The translations under genes and the position numbers were made by a program. From positions 1 through 20,415 of IMG/VR virus record IMGVR_UViG_3300027777_000190: a DNA stretch of 20,415 nucleotides. One strand, 5' to 3'. This document shows positions 1,047 through 4,390 of this stretch, in pieces. Each line of letters starts with the position of its first letter. Within the stretch, counting starts at the first letter, position 1. Under the pieces are notes generated by a model. It searched no databases. It was not told the origin of the DNA and saw nothing but the letters and a program-made list of their open reading frames with translations. Source of the stretch: a virus.

Positions 1047-1485
1047 TATTTACCCCTAGAAACCGGCAATTTTCTTTTGCCAATGTCAAAAATATAATAT
1101 CGCCATCCGGTGCTGCATTTTTAACCCTTGCTTCTTCAATAAAACCCATCTTAGTAACTAATTTTAAACTTTTTGCATGGGTACTGCTTACCGGCACAAT
1201 AATCTTTTTTACCTTACAAAACTCAAAAGGGTAACTAAATATCGCTTTTAAATACCCTTTTGTCATACGGCCTTCAATTGCTATATGGCACACAATCGAG
1301 GCTTTGTTCCAATTCTCGTAAATTACGCCTGCAATAATTTGACCATCATGCTCTAACCCAATTGCTTGCGAATTATCTGCAAAATACTTACCTTGTACTC
1401 GGTCAGCTACCCAATAGCCAATTACATCGCCCTGGACTATATGCCAGCCCAACCTTGTTGATAAACAATGTCCGTCGATGCCCAT
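1039..1485 (-). CDS. GNAT-family N-acetyltransferase
   Basis: This 148-residue protein has the layout of small phage GNAT acetyltransferases, which move an acetyl group from acetyl-CoA to an amine. A central strand (AIGLEHDGQIIAGVIYENW, about residues 41-59) is followed by CHIAIEGRMTKGYL, a C-terminal KIIVPVSSTHAKSLKLVTKMGF (Asn/Ser-x-x-S-x-K-L-x-x-x-x-GF type, about 94-115) and the family-like ending PDGDIIFLTLAKENCRFLG. The start is uncertain. ATG at 1485 has AAGGA 11 bases upstream but overlaps the tail gene by 49 bases; TTG at 1452 would give a product nearer the usual beginning VQGDVIG. The substrate is unknown; the place between two virion genes suggests a virion or host-surface amine. 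Confidence 0.8.
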   Translation of the reverse strand: MGIDGHCLSTRLGWHIVQGDVIGYWVADRVQGKYFADNSQAIGLEHDGQIIAGVIYENWNKASIVCHIAIEGRMTKGYLKAIFSYPFEFCKVKKIIVPVSSTHAKSLKLVTKMGFIEEARVKNAAPDGDIIFLTLAKENCRFLGVNNG

Positions 1486-2966
1486 AGAATTGTCGTTCCT
1501 TGAGAGGCCGTTTTAAATTGAGTTGCAGCGCAATAACCAATGCCAGTCACGCCTTGCCAGTTGTTTGTGATAACCGTATCTGTAGCCCAATAACCAACAT
1601 CCCATAGCGCAACGTCCCATTTTGCAGATACTTGTGGGCTAAAACTTAGCGCCGCAGTTGTGTCTGCCAAATCAAAATCCATGTTTAAACCAATAAAAAT
1701 TGATGGCGTACCGTTTGTGAAAATTGACGGTCTTGCTCTAGTAAAATACTTTTTTACCCCACGGGCATCAAAGTAGTTAAATGCTTGCAACGCGTAACCG
1801 TTTATATCGCTTGTGTCATTTGCGTAATTGTCATCCCATGCATGGGCAACAAATCCGTTACCGCCCCAATATGGTTCGTTTTCAAAAATTGTCCAACAAT
1901 TAGCATATTGGCCTGTAAAATTACACCATGCTTTAGTAATGTTATTCATCACATATTGCTGTTGCTGCCCTTCTTGAATTGGCACATTTACAGTCAAAGC
2001 GTTGTGTTTAGGATCAAAACTAATATCCCAACCAAAATTATCACCATAAGACTGCGTTGCCGCAGAAAATGCGCCTTGAATCTTGTCTGATAATGCAATT
2101 CTTGGGTCTAGTCTAGATGATTGAAGACTAGCGGCAAGTGGATAAAGACCGTTATAGGTAAGAATAATCATATCCCCGCCATACTTCATCAAGCATCGTT
2201 TGCCAACAGGCTTACCAATGCGCCAAACGCCCACTAGAGCAAATTTTGTAATATCTGATGGGTCAGTACCAGAATAAACAATAACCTCGCCATTGGAAGT
2301 TATGAACACTAGGTTATCGTCTACTCCATAGCCAGCATCAATTGTCCAAGTCCCCGCTGCAACTAAATATCCACCTAATTGAGCAACTGAACTCATGTCA
2401 ATTGCGTTTGCAGCACCTTGAATGGATAAGGTAGGTAAGTACCATGCTTTTAATGTTGATGCTTGCGTAAACCAAACTTGGTTTTTAAACGTGGTGATAT
2501 TGCTTAAAGTTGATGCGGTTACACCAGTAATGGTTGGATTTGTCCAAATCGATCCGTTATACAGCAACGGCGCATCAATTCCATTGACCGCATATAAGTA
2601 ACCACCGGCAGGCGTTGTGACGTTGGTATATTCCCATTTAGCGTTGCTTAAACTTGTCTTTACAGCTGCGCCAACAGCACCGCCATTGGTGCAGTCGTAA
2701 ATTGATGTTCCCGCAATTGCAAATAATTTGTCAATTGCGCCGCTTGAATAACCCATCAATGTCTGAACTTGACCTGAAATGCCGGTTGAATATTTTGTGT
2801 ATCCACCACGCAACACCACATTATTGACTGTGGGGAACAAATTGGTTAATTGAACGGCATCGAGCGTATCCATGTTTGCAATAGAATCTCGCACGTTCCA
2901 ACCACCAATAGGCGCTGGCAATGATTGAACACGAGCCGCCGCACCTTGAACAAGTCGGCTTGCCAT
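1437..2966 (-). CDS. P22 gp10-like tail hub / DNA stabilisation protein
   Basis: This 509-residue protein begins MASRLVQGAAARVQSLPAP and soon has GGWNVRDSIANMDTLDAV and LFPTVNNVVLRGGY. That is the recognisable beginning of phage tail proteins that I relate to P22 gp10, the packaged-DNA stabilisation factor with a beta-propeller body. The rest is beta-rich with repeated Trp/Gly strands (LFAIAGTSIYDC, YLYAVNGIDAPLLYNG, NGEVIVYSGTDPSDIT), as a propeller would show, and has no membrane segment. I chose the ATG at 2964-2966 over an in-frame ATG at 2984 because AAGGGAAAG sits just upstream and family members start MASR-like. It lies downstream of the connector gene but is separated from it by the plus-strand endonuclease gene. 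Family placement is from pattern memory. Confidence 0.75.
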   Translation of the reverse strand: MASRLVQGAAARVQSLPAPIGGWNVRDSIANMDTLDAVQLTNLFPTVNNVVLRGGYTKYSTGISGQVQTLMGYSSGAIDKLFAIAGTSIYDCTNGGAVGAAVKTSLSNAKWEYTNVTTPAGGYLYAVNGIDAPLLYNGSIWTNPTITGVTASTLSNITTFKNQVWFTQASTLKAWYLPTLSIQGAANAIDMSSVAQLGGYLVAAGTWTIDAGYGVDDNLVFITSNGEVIVYSGTDPSDITKFALVGVWRIGKPVGKRCLMKYGGDMIILTYNGLYPLAASLQSSRLDPRIALSDKIQGAFSAATQSYGDNFGWDISFDPKHNALTVNVPIQEGQQQQYVMNNITKAWCNFTGQYANCWTIFENEPYWGGNGFVAHAWDDNYANDTSDINGYALQAFNYFDARGVKKYFTRARPSIFTNGTPSIFIGLNMDFDLADTTAALSFSPQVSAKWDVALWDVGYWATDTVITNNWQGVTGIGYCAATQFKTASQGTTILWASTDIVYQQGWAGI

Positions 2967-2974
2967 GTTATACT
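2946..2974 (+). promoter_or_regulatory. Candidate sigma70 promoter driving the HNH gene
   Basis: TTGAAC (2946-2951), a 17-base spacer and TATACT (2969-2974) give close matches to host -35 and -10 boxes. TG at 2966-2967 one base before the -10 adds the extended -10 motif. Transcription would start near 2981, about 22 bases before the endonuclease ATG and just ahead of its GAGGGA ribosome site (2992-2997). The promoter lies inside the first codons of the opposing tail gene. Confidence 0.6.
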
Positions 2975-2992
2975 TTCCCTTCATTTAACATG
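2964..2992. promoter_or_regulatory. Perfect 7-bp inverted repeat over the tail-gene start and HNH promoter
   Basis: CATGTTA (2964-2970) and TAACATG (2986-2992) are exact inverse complements separated by 15 bases. In the minus-strand mRNA this folds into a hairpin whose loop carries the AAGGGAAAG ribosome site and whose 3' arm contains the AUG of the tail gene. On the plus strand the same repeat covers the -10 box and probable transcription start of the endonuclease gene. It could be an operator or an RNA switch; both are inference. Confidence 0.45.
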
Positions 2993-3003
2993 AGGGAATT
3001 ATT

Positions 3004-3489
3004 ATGGAACAATGGCGTGATGTTATTGGTTTTGAGGGTCTTTACCAAGTTTCTGATTTTGGCAATGTTAAAAACGCAAAAACCGGACTGATTAAAAAAC
3101 TTCAATTGAATAAAAGATTGAATCGTCCGCAAATTTGTTTGTCTAAATTTGATAAAGTGACCACTTTTTACCCGCACAAATTGGTTATGGAAGCGTTTGT
3201 AAGTAAACGACCAGAGGGAATGGAATGTTGCCATGCTGATGGCGATCCTTGGAATAATGCGTTGACCAATCTTCGATGGGATAACAGAACAAATAACAGC
3301 CAAGACAAGTTTAAACATGGCACGCAAAAGATGGGCGAAAAGCACCCAATGTCTAAATTGACTGTTGAAAAAGTTTTGGCAATTAGACAAGACAACCGTG
3401 TTCATAGAATTATTGCAATTGAACACGGAGTTAGCCAATCCGTTATTTCTGAAATTAAATCTAGAAAGTCTTGGGCACACGTTAGTTAA
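3004..3489 (+). CDS. Free-standing NUMOD4/HNH homing endonuclease
   Basis: This 161-residue protein has the three parts of phage HNH homing endonucleases. A NUMOD4 beginning (EQWRDVIGFEGLYQVSDFGNVK, residues 2-23) is followed by an HNH_3-type core with HKLVMEAF (58-65), CCHADGDPWNN (75-85) and LRW (90-92). A C-terminal helix-turn-helix follows (about 118-160, LTVEKVLAIR then HGVSQSVISEI). Such enzymes nick or cut DNA lacking the insertion and are copied in by repair. It is the only plus-strand gene. GAGGGA lies 6 bases before the ATG. Its last 8 bases overlap the end of the connector gene tail to tail. No intron or intein signs flank it, so I read it as a free-standing selfish gene between two virion genes. 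Confidence 0.9.
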   Translation: MEQWRDVIGFEGLYQVSDFGNVKNAKTGLIKKLQLNKRLNRPQICLSKFDKVTTFYPHKLVMEAFVSKRPEGMECCHADGDPWNNALTNLRWDNRTNNSQDKFKHGTQKMGEKHPMSKLTVEKVLAIRQDNRVHRIIAIEHGVSQSVISEIKSRKSWAHVS

Positions 3490-4390
3490 CCCCATAACCC
3501 GTGTCGGGCACGTTATCATACCCAATCAAAACTGTGCCTGGGCGTGGTGCAAACGACAAATTAGCTGCTGACGTATCTTGCGCCCGAACAATCTCGAATT
3601 CTTCAATATAATTTCGATACATTGCTGTGGTATCAAAGCCTTTAGCCTCAAAATACTTGAGTTTGGTAGCCAAAACCATCAAGCGATCTGGGTAAATACA
3701 AGTATCGTTGTCGGCAGTGAAAGATGTTTTTACAACGCCGGTATCTGATAACGCCCAACCATTTGACCGATATTCGTAACCTAACAACTCGTTAGTCGAA
3801 ACGCCAGGCCAAATCTGAAAGTATTTGCCAAGCAATCGGTAACGAATCCGTGGGCCAGTTGAGATAAAGCCAGACAACAGCCATTCCCATTGCTGTGGGC
3901 TTTCAGGACCAAGCATTTCCCAATGTTTCGATTTGTCCCAATGGGTTCTTGGAACGGTTGATTCGTAATCTGAGGGTAATGCGTACTTCACCTTTTCAAA
4001 AGTGATCGTAGCCCCTGTATACGTCCCTGTAGATGGCAAGTTGACGGTTACTTGCGTGGCTGAGTCAACCGACTCAATGTAACAAGCGTTTGAAATACCG
4101 TTGCCCACCACTTGATACGTTGAATCAAGCCCAGCAGTCGATGGGATGCCGGTGATGGTGTAAGTGTTCAGCGTCACGTTACCCGTTGTTTGGGTATAGA
4201 CCGTTGTGAATGTATATTGCTTTGTTAATTGCCGCCAGTCATGCTTTCTTAAAAATTCATAACCGGCAGCGTTCATTAACGCCAAGATTTGAATTACATC
4301 TTGGTTGGTATTTGATGCCACAGTAGTTGGCGTTGATACCCCAAGCTCATTAGTGACTTGGGTTACTAGCTGTAGCATCGTTGATGACAT
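3482..4390 (-). CDS. Putative head-tail connector (P22 gp4-like position)
   Basis: This 302-residue protein begins with an alpha-helical segment (QLVTQVTNELGV, then QILALMNAAGYEFLRKHDWRQL), a pattern typical of phage gp4/gp6-type adaptor proteins that dock below the portal. A beta-rich insert around residues 60-130 is followed by LPSDYESTVPRTHWD and a C-terminal helix (YRNYIEEFEIVRAQDT). It ends in FAPRPGTVLIGYDNVPDTGYG. The start ATG is directly after the upstream stop with AGAGGA before it; a second in-frame ATG at codon 5 is an alternative. Position directly before the gp10-like gene fits a P22-type gp4-gp10 stack. The function is inferred from order and helix layout, not from an unmistakable motif. 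Confidence 0.6.
   Translation of the reverse strand: MSSTMLQLVTQVTNELGVSTPTTVASNTNQDVIQILALMNAAGYEFLRKHDWRQLTKQYTFTTVYTQTTGNVTLNTYTITGIPSTAGLDSTYQVVGNGISNACYIESVDSATQVTVNLPSTGTYTGATITFEKVKYALPSDYESTVPRTHWDKSKHWEMLGPESPQQWEWLLSGFISTGPRIRYRLLGKYFQIWPGVSTNELLGYEYRSNGWALSDTGVVKTSFTADNDTCIYPDRLMVLATKLKYFEAKGFDTTAMYRNYIEEFEIVRAQDTSAANLSFAPRPGTVLIGYDNVPDTGYGVN

Follow-up and report, generated by a model that had tools for sequence, protein, structure and literature searches.

How can a selfish gene enter an operon of essential genes without killing the operon? This question is raised by a locus in the window, which is the whole 20,415-nucleotide stretch of viral DNA analyzed here, where an HNH endonuclease gene lies in reverse orientation between two virion genes. 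In phage T4, the best-studied case, homing endonuclease genes antisense to a virion operon are rare: there is one, with no known promoter. The family described below has natural carriers by the dozen and empty sites by the hundred, and it provides an example of how such an entry is achieved. From comparison of these sequences, we consider it probable that the gene is an I-HmuI-like homing cassette, inserted antisense, that brings its own −10 element and a Shine-Dalgarno sequence for the displaced tail gene, and whose target in the connector gene has been altered.

An antisense HNH gene between two virion genes

The window is a leftward podovirus-like module including terminase, portal, major head protein, connector and tail genes. 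As the initial annotation had proposed, the HNH gene is its one convincing rightward gene, all other plausible genes being on the minus strand. The features of the locus are as follows:

1437–2966, minus strand: tail or gp10-like stabilisation gene (phrog_5107), start ATG at 2966 (assigned from PHROG and relatives)
2946–2951, plus strand: −35-like TTGAAC within tail codons V-Q-G, not insertion-specific
2966–2974, plus strand: putative extended −10, TGTTATACT, insert-borne and conserved in homologues; T2966 is shared with the tail start codon
2967–3481: mobile cassette, the DNA from the tail ATG to the connector stop, net 516 bp relative to the TAATG overlap of empty relatives
2973–2982, minus strand: insert-borne predicted Shine-Dalgarno sequence GAAGGGAAAG for the displaced tail gene (from anti-Shine-Dalgarno pairing)
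2981, plus strand: transcription start predicted from the sequence, about 7 nt past the −10
2993–2998, plus strand: Shine-Dalgarno sequence AGGGAA of the HNH gene, which is also the 3′ arm of an inverted repeat
3004–3489, plus strand: NUMOD4 and HNH_3 homing endonuclease gene, 161 aa, with a C-terminal helical (HTH-like) region (Pfam/PHROG)
3482–4390, minus strand: connector or head-completion gene (Pfam/PHROG: SU10 adaptor PF24175; phrog_6013 tail protein)
3491–3508, minus strand: connector codons PDTGYG, candidate endonuclease target, recoded in the window

The HNH stop codon (3487–3489) reaches past that of the connector (3482–3484), giving the 8-base overlap of the two ORFs (3482–3489) already described for this region. 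The mechanically listed start of the tail ORF, 2984, is probably wrong because the empty relatives begin at MASRLVQ; the real ATG is probably that at 2964–2966. In a 35-kb relative, the HNH gene is again the single plus-strand gene in a leftward stretch running from 3.2 to 33.7 kb. Otherwise that relative has one clear rightward cluster, three ORFs at its far left end (L355, 239–1910), which face the leftward late genes. The virion and packaging module of the window also contains, on the minus strand, an MptE-like gene (PF01973, 5307–6074) and an FkbM-type methyltransferase gene (PF05050, 11589–12200). A search of bacterial genome contigs gave a single remote match, and therefore no host is inferred.

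The HNH ORF is intact. Its product contains NUMOD4 (PF07463, E 7.8e-11) and HNH_3 (PF13392, E 4.1e-8), each beyond the Pfam cut-offs, and its sole solved-structure relative by sequence is I-HmuI of Bacillus phage SPO1 (PDB 1u3e; phmmer, E 2.4e-16), which has the same NUMOD4–HNH_3 architecture. A confident AF2 model (pLDDT 89) also ranked 1u3e top in Foldseek (E 9e-9, TM 0.57). The active-site residues H58, H77, D79, G80, N85, N89 and L90 are invariant or nearly so across homologues. The Asp that serves as a metal ligand in I-HmuI, preceding the catalytic His, is aligned with Cys76, so that activity is not assured. The ORF of I-HmuI lies within a group I intron and runs in the same direction, whereas the gene here is free-standing, antisense and between virion genes. 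A group I intron-encoded endonuclease is rejected for this locus: the insert lies between two ORFs and is antisense, and an Rfam search of the window gave zero matches. A tRNA context was likewise absent. The gene is predicted to be a free-standing homing endonuclease cassette of the I-HmuI type. On the opposite strand, a 185-aa open frame with a TTG start (2968–3525, minus strand) is probably a by-product.

The HNH, tail and connector proteins were used as queries to collect relatives with and without the gene; both carriers and empties are freshwater podovirus relatives. In the empty ones, the connector stop and the tail start share bases (TAATG) or are separated by only a few, whereas occupied loci have a net 510–534 bp between these codons, and more in a few outlying alleles. 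The gene sits at this same junction in about 36 distinct alleles, every one of them antisense to the late genes. The nearest empties, in which both flanking proteins are 98–99% identical to those of the window, have TAATG and no insert, and a second clade has 4 occupied loci among 80, the other 76 being empty. Presence and absence thus alternate at a fixed site among close relatives, and the cassette is, by this comparison, a precise net insertion of about 516 bp. Together with the Pfam domains, the empty relatives bear out the earlier view of a NUMOD4/HNH gene inserted antisense between two virion genes. No gene is annotated between connector and tail in seven isolates, named phages with related tail genes: MW202489, phiGT1, ppBjS10J-1, RHph_Y25, Mx8, pCB2047-C and EBPR podovirus 2.

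An insert-borne −10 and two opposed Shine-Dalgarno sequences

How is a gene in this orientation expressed? The initial annotation proposed a dedicated promoter within the first tail codons. Its elements are correct by position: TTGAAC is separated by 17 bases from the −10 hexamer (TTGAAC-N17-TGTTATACT), TATACT at 2969–2974 with TG at 2966–2967. The −35-like hexamer does lie in the tail codons, whereas the −10 is placed immediately 5′ of that gene's ATG. A single consensus match is not above chance (42 sigma70-like matches against 34.8 ± 5.8 expected), and the argument comes instead from conservation. In HNH homologues, TGnTATAAT is kept at −38/−36 from the HNH start; at least 7 of 8 positions are matched in 28 of 38 alleles (10% in dinucleotide shuffles) and all 8 in 16 of 38 (0.6% in shuffles), although the alleles are related, so that these counts are not independent and the effective sample is smaller. 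Conservation extends down to about 47% HNH identity. The matches are weak in 10 of the 38 leaders, those of L235/L237, L219 and L257 being the worst. The motif is absent where the HNH gene is absent: in a check suggested with the original proposal, whether insert-free relatives keep the promoter, none of 53 empty junctions reached 7 of 8 positions, and the proposal withstood it.

What stands is therefore an element-specific extended −10 facing the HNH gene. A role for TTGAAC within the element is rejected: the hexamer encodes tail residues and occurs also in most empty relatives, and in most of the distant carriers, which belong to other clades, the best hexamer at the −35 spot matches the consensus at only 1–3 of 6 positions. 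Since the −10 is insert-borne and conserved and the −35 variable, the element carries its own −10 and is not tied to any one −35.

Which polymerase uses it? A phage-encoded single-subunit RNA polymerase is rejected, as PF00940 was found in none of 15 relatives' contigs of 32.5–41 kb, which may be fragments, while phage T7, the positive control, was detected in the same search. This absence is consistent with the earlier suggestion that the host polymerase drives the gene.

Additional sequences occur in some leaders. In L257/L258 (HNH about 42% identical), the leader has an extra rightward-facing TGTTATAAT further upstream, adjoining the start of a different minus-strand gene between HNH and tail. 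About 60 bp ahead of their starts, related HNH genes in other contexts (L256, L262, L252) carry inverted repeats similar to TTGATAAG...CTTATCAA, which flank a −10-like sequence and resemble an operator or a hairpin over a promoter.

Insertion displaces the original start region of the tail gene (GGGACAAACTAATG). How does the tail gene survive this? Between the −10 and the HNH start, two Shine-Dalgarno sequences lie back to back on opposite strands, one for each gene. Mean pairing of the tail leader with the anti-Shine-Dalgarno is −5.3 kcal/mol in occupied loci, −3.9 in empty ones and −1.9 in random segments; as judged by this pairing, the insert gives the displaced tail gene a new predicted Shine-Dalgarno sequence.

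The two sequences also constitute an inverted repeat, whose 5′ arm (2975–2980) is inside GAAGGGAAAG, and this might be read as control of the T4 I-TevI type: a TTCCCT..AGGGAA RNA hairpin would hide the HNH Shine-Dalgarno sequence in read-through RNA, and the placement of the −10 would free it in short transcripts. Nearly all alleles can fold the hairpin (−3.4 to −10.3 kcal/mol), RNA that begins at the predicted start is unable to (0 to about −2), as the 5′ arm is upstream of that start, and the geometry is the same as in I-TevI, segB and Aeh1 mobE (PMC2988022), which share a promoter immediately upstream and an inverted repeat over the ribosome-binding site. Those genes differ from the present one, which is antisense, lacks covariation support and has as its second arm the Shine-Dalgarno sequence of a neighbour gene. 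Covariation is not above shuffles in the 9-pair register and mixed in the 6-pair register, so that the hairpin is unproven as a covarying structure; arms mixed between alleles fold just as well as the native combinations (−5.9 against −6.1), 3663 of 20000 arm permutations being as low. No upstream rightward unit that could yield read-through RNA is seen nearby, and the opposed Shine-Dalgarno pair already accounts for the repeat. We regard hairpin control as quite unlikely; the simplest account of the inverted repeat is that two Shine-Dalgarno sequences stand opposed.

The connector end as a candidate target

Where would the endonuclease cut? The PDTGYG codons near the connector end read CCCGACACGGGTTATGGG in the window and CCTGATACTGGCTACGGG in the empty consensus. 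This stretch lies 7–26 bp from the insertion, outside the 8-base ORF overlap. GATACTGGYTAYGG, in the last connector codons, is intact in 108 of 138 empty sites, the other 30 also deviating, and in 1 of 43 carriers; after 95% de-duplication the figures are 75 of 94 and 1 of 33, for a motif that was chosen after the data were seen. Residues in PDTGYG are changed in 30 of 43 carriers against 5 of 138 empties, and about 11 of 14 independent phylogenetic pairs point in the same direction, with none opposite (median p 0.001). The last six connector codons are the most divergent segment between occupied and empty loci in two clades (0.53, where the segments average 0.03 and 0.08 with an sd of about 0.10), and no such shift is seen in the first six tail codons (−0.01). 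Within the 240 nt up to the motif end, the carrier/empty mismatch ratio is 3.4–3.8 in the final 24 nt and 1.1–1.7 elsewhere. The connector end is thus likely to be the target, altered in nearly every carrier.

Two other explanations of the altered end should be weighed. The connector 3′ end of empties doubles as the tail start region and may be conserved as DNA; since the insert supplies a new start region, the old one would drift in carriers by relaxed constraint, and the target of the endonuclease would be elsewhere. The last 24 nt are indeed the most DNA-conserved part in empties (mismatch 0.07 against 0.16–0.31 elsewhere), the insert does provide a replacement Shine-Dalgarno sequence, and distant insert-free phages end their connectors differently, though Mx8 keeps VPETGFG. 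However, the altered D and T codons are upstream of any Shine-Dalgarno position, and the excess of residue changes in carriers is unexpected if the protein end is constrained for function. We consider drift rather unlikely as the explanation. It is also unlikely, in our estimation, that the altered end is simply donor DNA co-converted with the cassette and of no protective value. Such hitchhiking would fit the identity between the window and its nearest empties, 66% in the last 30 connector bases and 80–96% further out, and the V-N-stop ending and HNH stop common to A-type carriers. It accords poorly with the several altered versions among carriers (Q, S, N and F at the amino acid level), which do not represent one donor flank, and with near-identical flanks bearing different HNH types (L202/L214).

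If the connector end is the target, the process would be as follows. Host sigma70-type RNA polymerase would start near 2981 via the extended −10, with little help from whatever sequence serves as −35. The endonuclease would cut or nick the connector 3′ end (around GATACTGGYTAYGG) of a co-infecting empty phage, and repair would copy the cassette together with its flank. Carriers would escape self-cutting by means of the altered site, a change that is needed because the cassette adjoins the site rather than interrupting it. Leftward late transcription would run through the HNH gene in antisense and may hold it back late in infection. More tentatively, at somewhat short of an even chance, we would see a self-contained antisense cassette, with a −35-independent promoter, paired Shine-Dalgarno sequences, and a cutter with a resistant adjoining site; in such a cassette the back-to-back sequences would start the HNH gene and rescue the essential tail gene. 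The short segment named here makes cutting and carrier resistance directly testable.

Known relatives and movement between phages

Free-standing HNH homing endonucleases are of a known kind. Those of T-even and skuna phages (mobE, PMC12724721) are likewise intronless, located beside essential genes and variably present. In T4, enzymes of the free-standing class cleave at sites hundreds to thousands of bp away from their genes (PMC2988022), whereas the candidate target here is much closer and its copy is altered in carriers. T4 segD, a GIY-YIG gene between genes 23 and 24, is also free-standing and antisense to the surrounding virion genes; it is the sole antisense case in T4, and its promoter was not found (PMC2988022). 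The present cassette differs from segD in its nuclease family and in its conserved element-borne −10. For antisense homing genes, this T4 review was the only literature found, and open-licence full texts yielded no paper on the present arrangement. What appears new is the constant antisense place in a virion operon, the element-borne −10 with a putative rescue Shine-Dalgarno sequence, and the altered neighbouring site.

Does the gene move? Pairwise identities of connector and tail are correlated (Spearman 0.84), and those of HNH with the two only at 0.38 and 0.44. In L202 and L214 the connectors are the same over the 196 aa compared and the tails are 98% identical, but the HNH proteins share only 56% identity. 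The seven A-type HNHs group as one clade (support 100) whose members are dispersed across the connector tree, on which at least four changes are needed; their grouping there is rejected (AU p 1.4e-47). From this conflict it follows that the gene moves between phages, and the trees thus indicate lateral movement independent of the flanks. As judged from its alleles, in which dN is far below dS (e.g., 0.083 against 0.82), the gene is under strong purifying selection, which, together with the tree conflict, supports a working, moving gene. An ordinary, long-resident cargo gene without homing activity, passed on vertically and lost on many occasions, would explain the at least 16 occupancy changes on the connector tree, as such counts cannot separate gain from loss, but it would not explain the conflict between trees or strong purifying selection on alleles of uncertain use to the phage; we consider it very improbable.

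One allele departs from the usual form. L245 (2465–3270, on the same contig as L053) has the usual N-terminal half and an unrelated C-terminal half, and precedes a RecA-dependent-nuclease-like ORF and genes of early type where the connector is expected, representing either a domain swap with a rearranged neighbourhood or a chimeric contig.
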